From the NCBI GenBank assembly GCA_016788885.1, contig JAEURX010000036.1, positions 1-64,000 of the forward strand: a stretch of DNA of 64,000 nt, in the 5' to 3' direction. The notes under the pieces were generated by a model. That model saw only the letters and a list, made by a program, of their open reading frames with translations. It was not told the DNA's origin and searched no databases. Position 1 is the stretch's first letter. Every line of letters begins with the position of its first letter. Origin of the DNA: Nitrospira sp. GTDB taxonomy: Bacteria; Nitrospirota; Nitrospiria; Nitrospirales; Nitrospiraceae. The position numbers and the translations under genes are program-made. This document shows, in pieces, positions 20,158 through 31,995 of this stretch.

Positions 20158-23100
20158 CTATCGAGGCAATTGCAGGACGATCGTCGTCCCGTTGCCTTCC
20201 TGTGTTTCGATCTGTACGTCTCCACCGAGAAGCCCGGCGCGCTCCCGCATGCCCAAGAGACCAAACGATCTGGCGTCGGTCAGGCGATCCTGGGGAATTC
20301 CTCGTCCATTGTCACGCACCCGCAAGACTAACCCCGCTCCCTGGTCTTCCAGGCACACCTGCACCTCGGTCGCCTGCGCATGCCGGGTCACGTTGGTCAG
20401 CGCCTCCTGACAAATCCGGAAGACGGCCGTCGCCTGTTCAGGATCAACTCGCAGATCTTCGTGACTGACCGTGCAGTGACAGACGATGCCCGTGCGTCGC
20501 TGAAAATCCCGGCATTGCCATTCGATCGCCGCGACCAACCCCAAATCGTCTAACACGCCCGGACGCAATTCGGCCACAATCCGTTGCACCGAGGTGATGG
20601 TGCTATCGACCTGCTCCTTCATCCCGCGAATTTTTTCATCGACTCTGGCGCGATCGCCGGGAATGAGGCGCTCCCCCAACAACCCGCCAAGGCGTGACAA
20701 ATCAATCTTGAGACACGTCAGGCCCACGCCTAATTCATCATGCAACTCGCGCGCGATTCGTCCGCGCTCTTCTTCACGGATGCCCTCCATCCGTCCTGAG
20801 AGTTTCCGCAACCGCCGCAGGGAATCCTGCAACTGCGCTTCCGCCCGCTTGCGATCCGTCGTATCCTTGAAGACCACCACCGCACCAACAATCTCCCGGC
20901 GTTCCCACATGGGCGTACTGACATATTCCACAGGAAAACTCGTGCCGTCTTTCCGCCAAAACATGCCGTCCACCTGCTCTCGAATCTCCCCTGCCGTAAC
21001 CGTTTCCAGAATCGGACAGCGTAAGTCCCTCAACGGACGCGCACCGGTATCTGGAGGAAACACATACGAGTCCATGGAGCGGCCGATCAAGTCCTCTGCT
21101 TCGACTCCAAACATTTTCGCCGCCGCCGGGTTAACAAAGGTAAAACACCCGCTCCGATCCACACCGTAGATCCCTTCTCCGGCGGAATTCAAGACAACTT
21201 GATTGTGATAGTGAAGCCGGTCGAGTTGCTCCTCCGCGGACCGTCGTTCGCTGATATCGCGCAGGATCATGGTGAAAAACAGGTCGGACTTCCCTTTCCA
21301 CGATGTCACGCTCAACTCCAGGGGAAACTCCGCTCCCGCTTTCCGGAGGCCGACGAGTTCCAGCGTTTTGCTCGTCGAGTGCACGCGCTCCAATAATCGA
21401 ACGCGCTGCACGTTGCGCTCCAGTTCCTCGTGATACCGCTCTGGAATAATCACCGTGACCGGTTGACCGATGATTTCTTCGGCTGAATATCCGAAGGTCG
21501 CCTCGGCGCCTTTGTTCCAGAATGCCACCTTCATCAGCGCATTGACCAAGACAATGGCGTCCGTGGTCGATTGCACAATCGAGCGCAATCGCTCTTCACT
21601 GACGCGAAGTGCGTCTTCAATTCGGCGACGCTCGGTGACATCTCGAATAATTCCCAACACGCCGACGACGCGGCCCTGACGCATCTGCGGCGTGCCCACG
21701 AATTCTCCGGTTACGTACCCACCCTGCTTCGTGCTGATTTGCATCGAGCAGGTCAAGGGTGTTCCACGCTCGACGATCGCCTGCAGCACATCCTGACAAA
21801 ACCCTGCGTCGTCGGGGTGGAGCAACGCGACAAGCGGTTCGCCGATCCATTGCGAACGCGACCAGTTCGTGACCGTTTCAAACGCCGGGTTCAGGGAGGT
21901 CATGGTCGCCTCGGTCGAGAGGGTGAAAATAATATCGCGTGCACCTTCCACCAGACTACGAAACCGATACTCCGATTCAAAGAGCGCATCCTGAGCGCGC
22001 TTCAACCACGTAATGTCATGGAAGACCAGCACGGTCCCGCGCAACACCCCCGCATCGTCTCTGATCGGCCTGGCATTGATGCTGATCCAGCGACCGGGCA
22101 CGCCTTGCGAAGCCCGCAAATAGGCCTCCAACCAATCGACCTTCTCCCCGCGCATCGCGCGCGCCAACGGCCATTCATTCCGCGAAAACGGAGTCACCGT
22201 GTCCCCATGAAAAAATTCATACCGTTCCGCCCACTCGGTCGGAGGGAGCAGGCCTGGCGCGAACCCGAGAATACTTTCCACGGCCGGGTTCGCGACCAGG
22301 AGTTGCCCTTCGGCATCCGTCACCACCACGCCGTCCCCCATGCTTCGCAGAACCGAGTTGACGATTCTGGTCTGCTCGTTCAGGGCCTGTTCCGACCGTT
22401 CCAGCGCCTCGGCCCGTTCCCGCAACGCCCGCTCCGCCTCCGCGATTCCAGCCGACTGCGTCCGGACGGCATCTTCATAGACGTGCAGCAACTGTTCGGC
22501 CACGGCCAGTCTCGACTGATGGCGCAACCCAGCAGCGCGTTCGGATGGCCCCATCGCCGGCGACATCACGGTCCCCTCCGTGCCAGCCTCACCTGGGGAG
22601 GCCTCGTCGAATGCCAGCAAGGAGGTTTTGAGACTGAGTGCAAGGGATTTGCAGAGAGAGGCCGTCTCACGAGGGACTGGAATTTTCGAGAACAAAATGA
22701 CCGCGAATAAATCATGTGACGGCAACATGCCGCCAAAACACAAGACGGATTTGACGCCGTACTTCACGACGAAACCTTCCTGCACCGGCACATAGGGACT
22801 GCCCACCGCATCGGGGACATAGAACACGTTGTACGTCTTCTCTTCCAGATCGACGAGCCACTCCCCCTCCGGCGTGACATCGAACGCCGTCGAAACGCCG
22901 AACTGATGCAGCAACTGGGAAAACATCGGGAACTGTTTGACGAAATCTGCGCTGACCATCGGAATCACTCGATACCGGTGTGACCGCTCCACGTGATTCC
23001 ACGTGGCTTCTTCACCGGCCGAGGCTACCAATGTAAAACACTTCATGTCGGGGGAGGGGACAATCCCACCAAGTTTTTCACGCGCCAGTTGCTGCATCGC

Positions 23101-23310
23101 CGGTTCAAGCCGGCTGTAGGAGATGGTTTTAAAGCAACGGACCAGCACGCACTCGCGCGCCCCCGTCTCTTCGTTGCCCAGGTGGGTGAAAAGGTAGTCC
23201 ACAGCGCGGGAGGCCGCCTGCTGCAGGGAATTCGATTGTTCACCCAGCTGACGCAAAACAGCCGAGCATTCAGTCACTTCCAACAGCGAGAAGCGAGCCA
23301 GACTATACAC
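20158..23310 (-). CDS. Multi-PAS sensor histidine kinase (HisKA_3 type)
   Basis: The 1050-residue kinase has an N-terminal region of about 240 residues with GAF-like features but no clear family, a coiled linker (AEAERALRERAEALERSEQA), then four PAS domains (roughly 310-435, 445-565, 575-690 and 700-825). The catalytic end is of the NarX/DegS kind: ERGRIARELHDELGVGLT with the phospho-His near 850, N-box around LTNVTRHAQAT, and DNGRGIPQ and GLLGMRERAGLLGG for ATP binding. No membrane helix is obvious, so sensing is likely cytoplasmic. The GTG start has GAGGG upstream. The partner regulator follows directly. Confidence 0.93.
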   Translation of the reverse strand: MYSLARFSLLEVTECSAVLRQLGEQSNSLQQAASRAVDYLFTHLGNEETGARECVLVRCFKTISYSRLEPAMQQLAREKLGGIVPSPDMKCFTLVASAGEEATWNHVERSHRYRVIPMVSADFVKQFPMFSQLLHQFGVSTAFDVTPEGEWLVDLEEKTYNVFYVPDAVGSPYVPVQEGFVVKYGVKSVLCFGGMLPSHDLFAVILFSKIPVPRETASLCKSLALSLKTSLLAFDEASPGEAGTEGTVMSPAMGPSERAAGLRHQSRLAVAEQLLHVYEDAVRTQSAGIAEAERALRERAEALERSEQALNEQTRIVNSVLRSMGDGVVVTDAEGQLLVANPAVESILGFAPGLLPPTEWAERYEFFHGDTVTPFSRNEWPLARAMRGEKVDWLEAYLRASQGVPGRWISINARPIRDDAGVLRGTVLVFHDITWLKRAQDALFESEYRFRSLVEGARDIIFTLSTEATMTSLNPAFETVTNWSRSQWIGEPLVALLHPDDAGFCQDVLQAIVERGTPLTCSMQISTKQGGYVTGEFVGTPQMRQGRVVGVLGIIRDVTERRRIEDALRVSEERLRSIVQSTTDAIVLVNALMKVAFWNKGAEATFGYSAEEIIGQPVTVIIPERYHEELERNVQRVRLLERVHSTSKTLELVGLRKAGAEFPLELSVTSWKGKSDLFFTMILRDISERRSAEEQLDRLHYHNQVVLNSAGEGIYGVDRSGCFTFVNPAAAKMFGVEAEDLIGRSMDSYVFPPDTGARPLRDLRCPILETVTAGEIREQVDGMFWRKDGTSFPVEYVSTPMWERREIVGAVVVFKDTTDRKRAEAQLQDSLRRLRKLSGRMEGIREEERGRIARELHDELGVGLTCLKIDLSRLGGLLGERLIPGDRARVDEKIRGMKEQVDSTITSVQRIVAELRPGVLDDLGLVAAIEWQCRDFQRRTGIVCHCTVSHEDLRVDPEQATAVFRICQEALTNVTRHAQATEVQVCLEDQGAGLVLRVRDNGRGIPQDRLTDARSFGLLGMRERAGLLGGDVQIETQEGNGTTIVLQLPR

Positions 23311-25191: not shown

Positions 25192-25875
25192 ATGCCTACA
25201 TACACCACATCCTCCAGAAGCGGCACATTCACTCACCGATGGACCTTCGCGATGTTCGCGTTGGTCGGATGTCTTGTGTTCTTGCCTTATCAGGCTCTTG
25301 CCGGTCGCACGCTCGTCGTTCCCATCTCCGTCGCCACCTACACAGACAATCAGGCGGGCTTCCCGACATTCGTCATGAAATGGGATGAGGGGAACCAGCC
25401 GGATCCGCTGGCGTTGAAATGGGGCCGCAGCCAAGTGCCGGTCAGAGGAACCGGGATGAAATCCGTTCAGCACGCATTCCAGTTTGCCGTGGAACGGCTG
25501 GGTTCATCACTCCGTCCGACCGGAACCGTGTCCCTCTATGCGACATTTTCAGGGCCACTCAGCGGGGAGGGAACGACAGCAGAAGCTGCACTGGCCATCG
25601 GCTTTCTTGCGTTGCTGAAAGGCGACCACCTCAAGCAGGACATTACGATCACGGGAACGCTGGAAGCTGATGGTCGGATCGGACAAGTGAGTCAGGTGGC
25701 AGAAAAAACGACAGCGGCGGCGCGAGCGGGATATCACGTCTTGCTGGTCCCACGCGGTCAGTTCTACACGCCCCGCGTCAATAGAGTCAGCCTGGCACTG
25801 GAATCAAGCGTGATGGTGCGAGAAGTGGATACGATTGAAGAAGCCTACGAAATCATGACCGGAAGAAAACTCTAG
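25192..25875 (+). CDS. Exported Lon-like (S16 fold) domain protein
   Basis: The 227-residue protein has a signal peptide (hydrophobic FAMFALVGCLVFLPYQALAG; cleavage near residue 38). The mature part aligns with the proteolytic domain of Lon: GTTAEAALAIGFLALLKG matches the GPSAG-plus-helix segment, ITITGTLEADGRIGQVSQVA matches the MTGEITLRGxVLPIGG strand, and the dyad lysine sits in EKTTAAARAG (Lys172). The nucleophile Ser of GPSAG is replaced by Thr129; a shifted reading could use Ser124. No ATPase domain is present. It faces the CHAT gene, with a shared hairpin between. Activity is uncertain. Confidence 0.75.
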   Translation: MPTYTTSSRSGTFTHRWTFAMFALVGCLVFLPYQALAGRTLVVPISVATYTDNQAGFPTFVMKWDEGNQPDPLALKWGRSQVPVRGTGMKSVQHAFQFAVERLGSSLRPTGTVSLYATFSGPLSGEGTTAEAALAIGFLALLKGDHLKQDITITGTLEADGRIGQVSQVAEKTTAAARAGYHVLLVPRGQFYTPRVNRVSLALESSVMVREVDTIEEAYEIMTGRKL

Positions 25876-25933
25876 ACTCCCCACCCACGGACCCGTCACC
25901 CTCGACCTTTTCCCCCTCGTGCCCAACTCTCAT

Positions 25934-25961
25934 GCACTCACACCACTCGACGAGTGAGTGC
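25934..25961. terminator. Hairpin between two convergent genes
   Basis: GCACTCAC (25934-25941) and GTGAGTGC (25954-25961) are exact complements around a 12-base loop. A competing inner pair, CACTCG/CGAGTG (25944-25956), is also perfect. No T run follows on either strand. It probably separates the converging transcripts of the Lon-like gene and the CHAT gene. Confidence 0.5.
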
Positions 25962-25971
25962 CTATCAATTG

Positions 25972-28446
25972 TCACATCCAGTTATTGATCAGCAGGAACG
26001 CCGACCAGAAACTCGGATGGCTATGCCCGCGTTGCGCGAGAATCTTCTGTTGGGCACGCTGCAAGGCGACCGCCTTGGACACGGTTGGATCCTGGAGCTG
26101 CCGATAGAACTCTTCGACAAGCTCAGTGGTGGTTGTTTCTTCAGTTGCCCAAAGACTCGCGAGAGCCGTTCGTGCACCCGTTTTTACCGCCACGCCCGTC
26201 AGCCCCAACGCAGCACGGTCATCCTCTGCAGCGATCTCGCACGAACTGAGCGTCAAGAGATCCAAGGGCTGCTGCCGATAATGCTGCATACCGACGAGTT
26301 GCGCCAACCGATCCATTGAAATCTTCCCGTCATGGGCGAGCACGAACGATTCATTCGCCTCCCCGCCGACGATCGTTTGGGATGCGACATGCACAATTCC
26401 TAGCCCCTGATCCTTAATTTCTTCCTCGAGTGAAGGGGCTGAGAACTGCTTGTTCATCAGCAGCTTTCCACCGTAGAGTGTTCTGATGGCTTGAACTTCC
26501 GCTTCTGCATGCCGGGGAGCCGGAACTCCCTCAACGGATTCGGTTAATCCAACCGACAACAGCTTTCCCTTGCGACGCTGAGACGACATTAAATCCGTCA
26601 TTTCCAGGCTGGGAGTGACGGCCACCGCCACCGTGTCCACAAGAAATTGGCGACCGTCATGCAACGCTCCCATCGGAATGGTCCGAAGCGCCCCTTCTGC
26701 GACCACAACCAACGTAGAGATTCCAGTCGACTGAAAATCCTGCTGCAGGGGTGCCACGAGCCACCCATGCAGCATCTGCGCCGAGGCCATATAATTTTGA
26801 GATCGCGAATCCTGAATGAGGCGCCTAAAGGTACGAATCTCTTTGGTCAGCTTTTCCCCGCTCACCGGGACTTGAATTTGCTTCAACCCAGTAGGGGTCT
26901 CCACCAGCAATTCGAGCCGATCCGGGAACGAAATGGGATAGACCACCATGGTGCCCGATGGCAACGCGCCGCCCTTGTGTTGCGCCACCACTTTTCCCAC
27001 ACAATCGTCCTGAAAATAGTCCTGCAACTCAGCTGCATGAGACGTTTCGATCGTCTCTTTGACCTGAACGAGCCACCGTTCGCTCTGATCAGGCGTCTTG
27101 GCAGTTGCGGCACGCCGTAACAAGACGTCCTCATACTCCACGAACAACGGGGCCACGGAGTCGTAGAAAGAATGATGGCGTCCCTGATATCCCACCGAAT
27201 ATTCAAAGCGAATCGGTTTCACCAGGCCTACCGCCCGCTGATACGCAGCCAACGCCTCATCCTCTTTCCCCTCAGCCCTCAACAACCTCGCGCTTTGCCA
27301 TTGCCAACGATATAAGGATTCCGGCGCATTGACCTTCTGTGCCGCAAAGGCCGCTTTGCGAGACAACTCTAGTGCCTCTGGGTTGCGATGTGCCTTTTCA
27401 AACAAGCCACCGAGATAGCCCCAGGCATACGATTGCCCCCGAGGGTCTCCTGTCCGCCCGGCGGTCTCACCGGCAGCAGTGAACGCGTCAGCGGCCTGAC
27501 GCAATAACCCAGTGCCAAGGCCACCTGGTTGGGATGCGTCTGTAACCCGTACTTTGCCCCCATCCGCCTTCTTGGCCGAAGCGTGCTTGGCAGTCATCGC
27601 AGCATGCAGATCTTGATACCCCAATCCGATATTCAGGAGTCCGGCGGTTTTGGCCCGGCTGTCACCCAAGGCTTGCACATCCGACCACGCCTGATCCAGA
27701 TGCCGTCGTGCTTCATCCATCTGCTGATTCAAGAGTAAGGCCATCGCACCATTCACCTGAGCCGTCGTCGCGAGAGCAGGCTGCTTCGTCTCTGCGGCAA
27801 GGCTTCGACTCTCGGCGTACACATCGATCGCTTCGGCAAACTGGCGACGTGCCGTGAGCACGTTGCCAAGATCGTTCAATACTCCGGCCACCAGCACCGG
27901 CTTTTGCTCCTCCCGCGCAATCGTCAGGGCTTTCGTCAAATGTTCTGTCGCCGGCCCCTCTTTTCCTAATGCATGCGATGTCGTACCAAGTTGCGCAAGA
28001 ATGGTCGCCGTCAGCACACGATCCCCCAGGGACTCCGACAACTTGAGTGCGGCTTGCAGCGTTCCCTGCGCCCGCCGCATTTGTCCCTCTTGTTGCAACG
28101 CGTGTGAAAGATTGATCAGAGCCTGGCATTGCTCCTTGGACTGCCCTCGCTCCTCATACACCTGCGCAGCAGCAATCCAGTGCGTCGCTGCTTGGGCATA
28201 GCTGCCTTGCTGAAACAGTTCCGCACCTTGCTTCATCTCCTGTGCAGGTGAAATTGCCGATCCGCCTCGCAATAACGGCAGGTCCTCGGCACCCACTAGC
28301 GTGACGGAGGCAACCGATGCCATGACCAGCAGGCCACCAGCCGCCAGTCCGAGGCTGGCGTGAGCACTACGGAGGGTTGCCGTCCAAGCAGACATCCGTC
28401 GTCGATCCATGCCGCCGCGAATCTTATTCTTGCTCTTCATAGGCAT
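25972..28446 (-). CDS. Exported TPR-repeat protein with C-terminal CHAT domain
   Basis: The 824-residue protein has a signal or anchor helix near residues 32-52 (LGLAAGGLLVMASVASVTLV), TPR-like helical repeats over about 60-430 (for example GVLNDLGNVLTARRQFAEAI), and a CHAT (caspase-like) domain over about 540-824. The catalytic cysteine is in LLTLSSCEIAAEDD (Cys736). The catalytic His of the usual HxATHG or HxASHG pattern is Gln here (IVHVASQTIVGG). The ATG at 28446 follows GGAGGAG; a GTG at 28461 overlaps that ribosome site. It starts 18 bp after the TpsA stop. CHAT proteins often sit with two-partner secretion genes. Confidence 0.88.
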   Translation of the reverse strand: MPMKSKNKIRGGMDRRRMSAWTATLRSAHASLGLAAGGLLVMASVASVTLVGAEDLPLLRGGSAISPAQEMKQGAELFQQGSYAQAATHWIAAAQVYEERGQSKEQCQALINLSHALQQEGQMRRAQGTLQAALKLSESLGDRVLTATILAQLGTTSHALGKEGPATEHLTKALTIAREEQKPVLVAGVLNDLGNVLTARRQFAEAIDVYAESRSLAAETKQPALATTAQVNGAMALLLNQQMDEARRHLDQAWSDVQALGDSRAKTAGLLNIGLGYQDLHAAMTAKHASAKKADGGKVRVTDASQPGGLGTGLLRQAADAFTAAGETAGRTGDPRGQSYAWGYLGGLFEKAHRNPEALELSRKAAFAAQKVNAPESLYRWQWQSARLLRAEGKEDEALAAYQRAVGLVKPIRFEYSVGYQGRHHSFYDSVAPLFVEYEDVLLRRAATAKTPDQSERWLVQVKETIETSHAAELQDYFQDDCVGKVVAQHKGGALPSGTMVVYPISFPDRLELLVETPTGLKQIQVPVSGEKLTKEIRTFRRLIQDSRSQNYMASAQMLHGWLVAPLQQDFQSTGISTLVVVAEGALRTIPMGALHDGRQFLVDTVAVAVTPSLEMTDLMSSQRRKGKLLSVGLTESVEGVPAPRHAEAEVQAIRTLYGGKLLMNKQFSAPSLEEEIKDQGLGIVHVASQTIVGGEANESFVLAHDGKISMDRLAQLVGMQHYRQQPLDLLTLSSCEIAAEDDRAALGLTGVAVKTGARTALASLWATEETTTTELVEEFYRQLQDPTVSKAVALQRAQQKILAQRGHSHPSFWSAFLLINNWM

Positions 28447-28464
28447 GATAGTCTCCTCCACTGC

Positions 28465-29736
28465 CTAGCATCCCTGCCACGTTCCGATCGTTTGAGAAAT
28501 CACACTGTCACGACCCGACGCTGCTTGCACTGGGACAGTCCCCATCTCTGCCTCTGTCCCAACCTCCTGGAGCAAGACCGGAGTCGCCATGGCGACTCCG
28601 GGCTGTGTTGGTGTGACATCCCGTGGGGCCTGAACAAAGCTGCTGAACTGGCCATCCTGCCGAGAGGCGCAACGGCTGGTCAGGAGAGGAGCGGGTGATG
28701 AGGGTGGTTGCTGCGCAATTTGAACGACTGCACGATTGAGAAATGCCACTGGGTCGATGAAATTAGGAGTTGTGATTGTCTGCGTCACGAACGAGAGCGG
28801 TGGTAGGCTACTCCCTGCAGATCCCACAACGGTCAGTTGACTGACCTGATTCGTTGAAGGATTTACAATCCTGTTTACTTGAGCCCCCGCCGGCGTGGTG
28901 ATTGTGCTAGGGAGAATATCTACGGATGCAGGGACGCCGGCACCACCGGTGGCTAACAAAAAGGTACCCGCGGAAGCCTGTACTTCTCCGTTACCAGAAG
29001 CCCCAGAGAACGGGTCCCCAACCGTAGGCTGGACACTAATTTCTCCAGGAGAGGCGGTACTACCGACAATGACCCGCTGCGCAATAATTCTGCTCCCATT
29101 AATCTGAATAGTACCGCCCATAAGTCCAATCGCCGTATTACCTTGCAGGGTACTGCCAGAAGAAAGCACGATAGGATTGTAGGGCCCGGGCCCCAGGAAG
29201 CCAAATGTTACTGGCGAGCCAACGGAGAGGGTCGAGTCCAAAGCGGGAGTCGTGGCAGAGAAAATGCCGCCCCCTGCAAGACGCACTTGAGCCGCAGTGC
29301 TGAAATAAGCAGCTCCCGATACATTTAAATGAGCGGCTGGGCCGAACACGATTCCATTCGGGTTGATGAAAAACAAATTTGCGTTCAACACCTGAATGGT
29401 GCCGAAGATATTGGATTGAAAGCCGCCAGCCATTACTCGAGTAATGACATTCGACACTCCGCCAGGGTTTACAAAAGAAGCAACATCTCCCGTGGCCACC
29501 GAGAATTGATTAAAGCTATGAAAAAGATTTGGCCCACCACCCGGCCTCGTCCCACCCGTAATACTTGTGGTATTGCCTGAGGTAGCCACTGAAGTGCCAA
29601 GACCTCCGAGGCCCGGAGGGGTTGCAACGATGTGAGTGCTCTGTGCAAAAACAAGGGCAACATGGCCCTCCCCAGTAAAGGCTGAGCAGACTACTGCACA
29701 GGCCACGATAAACAACCTCGCAATGTGACACCGCAT
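28465..29736 (-). CDS. TpsA-type exoprotein with filamentous haemagglutinin N-terminal domain
   Basis: The 423-residue protein has a signal peptide (IARLFIVACAVVCSAFTGEG) and then the TPS secretion domain over about 35-290: NLFHSFNQFSVATGDVASFV, NIFGTIQVLNANLFFINPNG with the NPNG motif, and IVFGPAAHLNVSGAAYF. After the domain there is only a short tail rich in Ser, Pro and Gln, ending with Cys, and none of the long repeats of large adhesins. It would be exported by the TpsB encoded upstream. The ATG at 29736 has AGGAG seven bases before; an ATG at 29751 overlaps that site. Confidence 0.9.
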   Translation of the reverse strand: MRCHIARLFIVACAVVCSAFTGEGHVALVFAQSTHIVATPPGLGGLGTSVATSGNTTSITGGTRPGGGPNLFHSFNQFSVATGDVASFVNPGGVSNVITRVMAGGFQSNIFGTIQVLNANLFFINPNGIVFGPAAHLNVSGAAYFSTAAQVRLAGGGIFSATTPALDSTLSVGSPVTFGFLGPGPYNPIVLSSGSTLQGNTAIGLMGGTIQINGSRIIAQRVIVGSTASPGEISVQPTVGDPFSGASGNGEVQASAGTFLLATGGAGVPASVDILPSTITTPAGAQVNRIVNPSTNQVSQLTVVGSAGSSLPPLSFVTQTITTPNFIDPVAFLNRAVVQIAQQPPSSPAPLLTSRCASRQDGQFSSFVQAPRDVTPTQPGVAMATPVLLQEVGTEAEMGTVPVQAASGRDSVISQTIGTWQGC

Positions 29737-29871
29737 GGCAATTCTCCTCATGAAGATTATGAGAGGACGGAATTGTGTCTTACCTCAATCCGTATACAAC
29801 TTCAACTGTCGAGGCGTGAAACACATCCACAAGGTTAGCCGTGGGGAAAAATCGGCCCGGGCCATTCATCC

Positions 29872-31680
29872 CTAGAACGCCTCCACCACTAACTGAAGAT
29901 GAATGCCATGGTCCTGTAGGTTGTCTCGATCAGTATCATAGCGTTTCAACTGCTTGCCGTAGTAGACCTCAAAATGACTACCCCGCCAAAAATTCCAGAT
30001 CGCTCCGATGCCGACACTGGCCAGCGTTTTGGGAGGGGTACCAGGCGTCTGAACACTGGTTTGCCAGCCATGGCCGAAATCAAAGAAGGGCGCCAAAAAG
30101 ACCGAATCGACCCCGGCCTTCGTCGTATAGACCGGCACCCGGGCCTCGATCGATCCCATGGCGGCGTTATCCCGGATCAAGGTGAACTCGCGATACCCAC
30201 GGACGCTATAACGACCACCAACGGCAATTTGTTCGAGAGGGAACAGATGGTCATTTGAAAGTTGTACAACTCCACGGCTAACCAACTGGGTCCGCCATAG
30301 GGGAAGTTGCCGAATCCATTGCGCCTCGCCCAACCACGAAAAGAAGCGAGCATCCGGCAAGTTGGGATCACCATTGGCCGTAGCACCCATCGCACCGACG
30401 CCTACGGAAAAGCGGGACAGGACTGACACCACCTGCTCCGTTGAGCGTCGAGAATATTCCTGGCCGAACCGGAATGCCGTGACTCGGAATTTTCCGTTCG
30501 GAGATCCGGCGATCAGCTCGAAAGGATCCCCACCCAAAAGACTTTCGTTACGCTCATGCTCGCCCGTGAAAGAAACGGCGAGTTCCTGCTCAGCGGTGCG
30601 GTACACAGGATGCCGCACCGAGACGCCCAAGATTTGAGCCTTGTTCTTAATATCCAAGACATCGAACGGCGCTTCCTTCACCGCAAAATCAAAACGCCGG
30701 TATTGGAACGACACCGTGGTATCGCGCGGACTGACGGGAATCTCATATTTAAAATTCAGCATGGGATTGACACCCGAGGATCGACCATACTGAAGGCTTA
30801 AGGTATCCCCGAATCCGAGCAGATTTCGATGAGCGAGAGTGACAAACCCCTGTTCCCCCCCGACGACCGGAGACTGGTAGTTGTTGAATTCCAACCAGGC
30901 CTTTAAGGGATTGGCTTCCTTCACCCGCACGTTGAGCGTGCTTTCACCAATGTTCGTACCGGGCAGGAGCTCGGCATTAATTCGTTCGACTCGAGGGTTG
31001 GCTTGCAGCAATTGCAAGCGTTCCTGCAACCGTCCGACATTCAACGGCGGTCCCGCTGCCAAATTGATCCGGTTCTGGAAATAGGACGAACGGAACCACT
31101 TGGTGTCGTCGACGTGTATTTCCGTGAGTTTGCCCTCGATGATCTGCATCGTCAGGGTGCCGTCCGCGACGTCCTGCTCCGGAATCACCGCGCCCGACGT
31201 GACATATCCGTGATTGATGTAGTGGTGGGTCAATGCGAGCCGAAGCCCTTCGAGATCTTCAGCCGTGAGCTCGCGATTCGTGTACGGTGCGGTGATCTCA
31301 GACAACTGCTGAGAGGTGAAGGCGGTATTCCCAACCAACCGAACTTCCTTCACCAGAATCTTCGGCCCGGTGATGGCTTGCTCCATCGTGCCGGGAGGAC
31401 GTGGCGACGGCACCTCGAGTGCGGGAGGTTGCACCGGAGGCGGCGCCGTCGGAAGTTGCGGCGGCTTCGGCGGTAAGGGAATGAGCTGTGAATGAGCCGG
31501 CATGCCCCACCCAAGCAGGAACACACAGGCCACGAGACTCCCACCAAGCCTCCGGGACCACGTTCGTACCAGCTGTTCGCCTCCGCGCTGCACGGGCCTA
31601 CAGTGAGCGCTCCCGCCCGGATCCATGCGCACGCTGTTGCCTACTGATTCTTTCTGCCTACTCTCCCTGACACGAGCCAT
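29872..31680 (-). CDS. TpsB-type outer-membrane transporter (ShlB/FhaC/HecB family)
   Basis: The 602-residue protein has a signal region (residues 45-64, SLVACVFLLGWGMPAHSQ), a proline-rich linker (PPKPPQLPTAPPPVQPPALE), POTRA domains (about 105-250: ILVKEVRLVGNTAFTSQQL and then LTMQIIEGKLTEIHVDD) and a C-terminal 16-strand barrel (about 260-602) ending in VVEAF with a terminal Phe. VRGYREFTLIRDNAA holds the VRGY signature near the sixth loop. It exports the TpsA protein encoded 136 bp downstream. The ATG at 31680 follows GGGGAGG; the TTG before it is not needed. Confidence 0.93.
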   Translation of the reverse strand: MARVRESRQKESVGNSVRMDPGGSAHCRPVQRGGEQLVRTWSRRLGGSLVACVFLLGWGMPAHSQLIPLPPKPPQLPTAPPPVQPPALEVPSPRPPGTMEQAITGPKILVKEVRLVGNTAFTSQQLSEITAPYTNRELTAEDLEGLRLALTHHYINHGYVTSGAVIPEQDVADGTLTMQIIEGKLTEIHVDDTKWFRSSYFQNRINLAAGPPLNVGRLQERLQLLQANPRVERINAELLPGTNIGESTLNVRVKEANPLKAWLEFNNYQSPVVGGEQGFVTLAHRNLLGFGDTLSLQYGRSSGVNPMLNFKYEIPVSPRDTTVSFQYRRFDFAVKEAPFDVLDIKNKAQILGVSVRHPVYRTAEQELAVSFTGEHERNESLLGGDPFELIAGSPNGKFRVTAFRFGQEYSRRSTEQVVSVLSRFSVGVGAMGATANGDPNLPDARFFSWLGEAQWIRQLPLWRTQLVSRGVVQLSNDHLFPLEQIAVGGRYSVRGYREFTLIRDNAAMGSIEARVPVYTTKAGVDSVFLAPFFDFGHGWQTSVQTPGTPPKTLASVGIGAIWNFWRGSHFEVYYGKQLKRYDTDRDNLQDHGIHLQLVVEAF

Positions 31681-31995
31681 CAAGGCCTCCCCTCTTTCTT
31701 GATGACAGGGCGGTCACCGGTCACCCCCGTGTCCGCAACGCTGTTGTTTTGCGATGTGACGATACACTCGATAGCCTGTGCCCCAGGCCAACCAGCAGCC
31801 ATGAAGTCGATCGAGGCTCCGCCCACTAAGATCCTACGCTGCTCGTACGTATCTCTTCTGATAATCAGTGTAATTGTGATGGTGCTTATAACATGTCTCG
31901 AATCAAAATACTCCTACAGCCCGGAAGTTTTTTCATCCGACGGGAAATCTGACTCAGGTTGGCACAGCAGGAACGGTGGGATATCCGCATGTCCA
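31681..31995. other. Non-coding region upstream of the two-partner secretion operon
   Basis: About 315 bases are AT-richer than the surroundings between 31840 and 31950 and should contain the tpsB promoter. On the minus strand TTATAA (31881-31886) is a possible -10 without a convincing -35. A tandem repeat of GGTCACC stands at 31712-31725. No gene is seen. Confidence 0.4.

Follow-up and report, generated by a model that had tools for sequence, protein, structure and literature searches.

The locus considered here raises the question whether two exported protease-like proteins, one with a caspase-like CHAT domain and one with a Lon-like domain, act as proteases on a protein secreted by the two-partner (TPS) pathway, or whether they serve it in some other way. 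Nitrospira are key nitrite oxidisers and, to our knowledge, little is known about their surface proteins. The locus lies in a 64,000-nucleotide stretch of a Nitrospira sp. contig (JAEURX010000036.1, positions 1 to 64,000), in the following called the window. The best-named relatives of this genome are Ca. Nitrospira defluvii and further Nitrospira MAGs. All four protein families named in the original prediction, namely TpsB, a short TPS-domain TpsA, a TPR-CHAT protein and a Lon-like protein, here termed LONX1, are present with Pfam matches (Table 1), and the three genes on the minus strand follow one another at short distances: according to an ORF scan, TpsB and TpsA are separated by 120 bp, and 3 bp separate the TpsA stop from the CHAT start. 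The called TpsB reading frame starts at TTG, and its real start is probably located inside the ORF. The Lon-like gene does converge on the CHAT gene as had been described; it is, however, not found within positions 25972-31680, where it had been placed, but outside, about 100 bp downstream of CHAT. Since LONX1 is encoded on the plus strand and converges on CHAT, it is not in the same operon as CHAT, TpsA and TpsB, and a co-transcribed LONX1 is ruled out by this orientation.

Table 1. Positions of the genes and other features of the locus in the window, with the observations on which their assignment is based.
Feature	Positions	Strand	Basis
TpsB	29872-31683	-	Pfam ShlB 115 bits, POTRA_2 87 bits, Omp85 match
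TpsA, 428 aa	28465-29751	-	Pfam TPS 107 bits, residues 52-240; signal-peptide-like N-terminus
TpsA C-terminal two-Cys module, candidate periplasmic anchor	28465-28671	-	Cys pattern common to homologues
TPR-CHAT, 829 aa	25972-28461	-	Pfam CHAT 155 bits, residues 560-825; many TPRs
LONX1, 227 aa, single-domain Lon_C (S16) homologue	25192-25875	+	Lon_C 31.8 bits, E 1.3e-7
Intergenic stretch separating LONX1 from CHAT (convergent genes)	25876-25971	.	Short gap
Sensor histidine kinase, several PAS domains and HisKA_3	20158-23310		Syntenic with the locus across Nitrospira

TpsB combines POTRA and Omp85-type barrel domains in the manner of a type Vb transporter, and TpsA carries the corresponding N-terminal TPS domain behind a hydrophobic N-terminus; TpsA is predicted to leave via TpsB. 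A signal-peptide-like hydrophobic N-terminus is found on all four proteins of the locus (TpsB, TpsA, TPR-CHAT and LONX1), for which these N-termini are the only overt evidence of localisation. The tail of the window TpsA, with the pattern SRCA...FSSF...RDVTP..PG......WQGC, contains Cys361 and the terminal Cys428, 67 residues apart. Throughout the exoproteins compared, the tails display two Cys residues separated by 65-98 residues, the second being located at the C-terminus or a few residues from it. This module is common to the loci of Nitrospira and of other Nitrospiraceae and occurs with variations at the cyanobacterial loci, where one of four exoproteins (L113) has a single tail Cys. It resembles the anchor of HMW1 and HxuA in the position of its two Cys, and by analogy the tail would be disulfide-bonded and retained in the periplasm.

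The combination of TPS, TpsB and CHAT is itself common in the family, LONX1 being the unusual part of the locus. The genome of the window contains three TPS genes, each with a CHAT gene no more than about 6 kb away, and in N. defluvii (G030) six of seven TPS matches are located within about 15 kb of one, according to a manual count that covers the listed places and L120. Loci with all three families are also found in other genera of the family and as clusters on plasmids of Nostoc and Pseudanabaena, and the CHAT proteins of these TPS loci begin with signal-peptide-like stretches. At TPS-CHAT loci outside the LONX1 clade, both in other genera and on the cyanobacterial plasmids, a Lon-like gene is absent. 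A limited search of the open literature, which constitutes weak evidence, yielded no co-mention of the CHAT domain and either two-partner secretion or filamentous hemagglutinin. At another TPS-CHAT cluster of the same genome (contig 42, L099:1607-2557) a gene for an exported DUF4384 protein follows directly 3' on the same strand and occupies the place that LONX1 has at the window locus. Three tandem TPS genes followed by one TpsB are found in N. defluvii (L119:938-13164), the first TPS being broken into a 197-aa frame.

For these CHAT domains the sequence His-Gly...Ala-Cys is taken by us to be the MEROPS clan CD catalytic motif, and the catalytic His was assigned by this motif and by the pattern in CHATs not linked to LONX1, not by residue alignment to Csx29. 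Compared with a clan CD peptidase, the window CHAT shows the profile and the Cys (Cys741), but the His of the His-Gly motif is replaced by Gln695 (codon CAA). Loss of the His or the Cys affects six of the 31 LONX1-linked CHATs, i.e. the window protein and five further relatives (with Gln, Arg or a lost Cys), and the dyad is broken in several separate lineages. The canonical motif is present in a single LONX1-linked CHAT out of 31, compared with 12 of 13 unlinked TPS-CHATs (the remaining one reading His-Ala), while most of the linked proteins read His-Thr...Ser/Ala-Cys; they form a derived, motif-divergent group. The median dN/dS of the CHAT domain is 0.047. A sequence search of the PDB with the CHAT domain gave no match, and a profile search with CHAT retrieved TPR proteins only. 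In the sister-genus genome G014 two TpsA-CHAT pairs are arranged in tandem (L057:10411-18987); there, both catalytic residues are missing from the CHAT adjacent to LONX1 and present in the second CHAT.

A Lon-like protein was detected by homology search in 138 of 147 genomes of the family. Nitrospira carries two lineages of it, the window type LONX1 and LONX2, whose representative in the window's own genome (G000:C7) is 38-40% identical to LONX1. LONX1 is present in all 29 Nitrospira genomes examined as well as in G014 of one sister genus, and forms one clade, the stem of which is long (0.92, support 100/100). The Lon_C score of the window protein is above the Pfam cut-off of 21.1 bits, and the profile also matches 19 of 19 close homologues; an AlphaFold model calculated with 19 close homologues reached a pLDDT of 40 and is unusable. 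Median pairwise dN/dS values (Nei-Gojobori) are 0.078 for LONX1, which is under purifying selection, and 0.102 for LONX2. The latter is to be regarded as a conserved, unexplained and putatively exported Lon-domain protease of the family. Its gene invariably diverges from one for a pentapeptide-repeat protein, behind which scpA and scpB are located (L075:9599-10294 and 19 more loci within L058-L077), and relatives of LONX2 from other genera adjoin the same three genes too; in 20 loci with wide flanks no TPS, TpsB or CHAT gene is located near LONX2 or its relatives.

In an alignment to solved Lon domains, Thr129 of the window LONX1 corresponds to the catalytic Ser, and Lys172 to the catalytic Lys. 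The window protein thus displays the Lon_C profile and the Lys of an S16 peptidase, but not the Ser in a GPSAG-type motif; in LONX1 this motif is gone and reads EG[STA]TAEA. Ser is found at the nucleophile site in none of the 31 LONX1 copies, whereas both Ser and Lys are kept in all 29 sampled LONX2 proteins and other-genus relatives outside the clade. Because the catalytic Ser is replaced, a role of LONX1 in binding or regulation rather than cutting is suggested. As the window CHAT lacks its His as well, the idea of two proteolytic folds that process the exported protein finds no backing here; with each of the two proteins devoid of a standard catalytic residue, a LONX1-CHAT proteolytic relay appears unlikely in the window species. 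The conserved Thr and the kept Lys could in principle form a working Thr/Lys dyad, with which an active LONX1 would process TpsA in the envelope together with CHAT. The nucleophile site is indeed Thr in 29 of the 31 copies, the Lys is kept in 29 of 30 readable ones (a broken copy being unreadable) and selection is strongly purifying; but Asp (G014) and Gly (L116) occupy the nucleophile site in two copies, His replaces the Lys in another (L038), the GPSAG motif is lost and the paralogue lineage with an intact dyad has neither CHAT nor TPS neighbours, and we consider such joint processing by an active LONX1 distinctly improbable. That both proteins are decaying remnants devoid of present function would agree with the loss of catalytic residues in the two of them, with the repeated breakage of the CHAT dyad and with the G101 copy of LONX1 (L118:6217-6897), in which two in-frame stop codons in the MAG represent either decay or an assembly error. 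Ratios of dN/dS of 0.05-0.08 and reading frames that are full-length in nearly all genomes, however, make decay very unlikely.

A further alternative concerns the linkage itself. LONX1 lies tail-to-tail with CHAT in all 31 copies, with gaps of 29-250 bp in intact relatives; in the one copy that is disrupted by stop codons, the gap measures 362 bp. A neighbourhood kept this completely is not due to chance. The gene-neighbourhood comparison that the original prediction had proposed as a check thus came out in its favour, as the Lon-like gene stands beside CHAT-TpsA-TpsB throughout Nitrospira and in one sister genus, and beside a different TpsA-CHAT pair in one further context (L116). Nevertheless, LONX1 and TPS-CHAT might owe their adjacency to common descent alone and be unrelated in function: the flanking genes for a histidine kinase, a NUDIX protein and an SDR protein, themselves unrelated, are just as syntenic with the main locus, so that a single inherited event may account for 30 of the 31 linkages, LONX1 is convergent and not co-transcribed, and other TPS-CHAT loci exist without it. 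The remaining case argues in the opposite direction. At L116 (contig 125 of G110), a single MAG contig that provides the one independent context, a LONX1-type gene is positioned tail-to-tail with a different, second TpsA-CHAT pair, and on its other side a glycosyltransferase gene takes the place of the SDR, NUDIX and kinase genes. CHATs of more than one lineage are therefore paired with LONX1. The L116 CHAT is close to a CHAT of N. defluvii at L120 (86.6% nucleotide identity), in the vicinity of which no LONX gene is found, and CHAT therefore does not require LONX1. Also the derived, motif-divergent character of the linked CHATs is at odds with a merely passive neighbourhood. Common descent remains a serious rival, though one that we consider rather unlikely. 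A reading of the locus as a defence system was rejected, since the matches returned by PADLOC, with a TPR model and with the Lon portions of CARF-Lon models, were all weak.

The explanation that we favour, to which we would grant an even chance of being correct, is that of an anchored TpsA, a periplasmic TPR-CHAT protein acting on it and LONX1 as a pseudo-Lon partner of CHAT. It is built on the gene content, its conservation and linkage, the lost catalytic residues, purifying selection and the two-Cys tail. The locus would belong to a type consisting of TPS, TpsB and an exported TPR-CHAT protein, to which LONX1, a presumably periplasmic Lon-protease homologue that lost its Ser and remained under purifying selection, would have been added in Nitrospira and one sister genus. 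TpsA would exit through TpsB while its two-Cys tail stays in the periplasm, leaving TpsA attached to the cell. From the periplasmic side, TPR-CHAT may recognise this tail or a secretion intermediate, cleaving where the His/Cys dyad is intact and only binding where it is lost, as in the window, and LONX1 would act as its non-catalytic partner or regulator. A more far-reaching version, in which both exported protease homologues are non-catalytic and the Lon and caspase-like domains form a periplasmic recognition complex on the anchored TpsA tail, is put forward tentatively and seems to us rather unlikely.

In the literature, two-partner secretion is presented as a minimal system of two proteins, and the genes of TPS maturation proteases apparently lie outside the TPS operons (PMC5422565). 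TPS loci with an exported caspase-like protein, widespread in Nitrospiraceae and cyanobacteria, would widen this two-protein view, and LONX1, catalytically degenerate and yet under selection, would represent a natural case for non-proteolytic roles of the Lon fold. The cyanobacterial plasmid clusters of Nostoc and Pseudanabaena contain the same three families, a CHAT protein with a signal-peptide-like N-terminus and, in most cases, the same exoprotein tail; they differ in that no Lon-like gene is annotated nearby and that the CHAT dyad is intact where readable. TPR and CHAT are likewise combined in the Craspase protein TPR-CHAT (Csx29) and in separase, with the His/Cys dyad of clan CD (PMC9729208). 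In contrast to Craspase, the window TPR-CHAT is exported, is encoded at a secretion locus, is not CRISPR-associated and has Gln for His. With regard to Lon (MEROPS S16) and the exported S16 proteins of the SepM type, LONX1 is likewise an exported single-polypeptide S16 homologue with a Lon_C score above the Pfam cut-off, but it contains no AAA+ or PDZ domain and its catalytic Ser is replaced in all copies. A further parallel is provided by HMW1ABC and HxuA/HxuB of Haemophilus influenzae, in which, as in the locus reported here, a TpsB and a TpsA with a two-Cys C-terminal tail are accompanied by extra genes; the third partner is a glycosyltransferase in the HMW system, whereas it is a TPR-CHAT protein at the window locus, joined in Nitrospira by the Lon-like protein.
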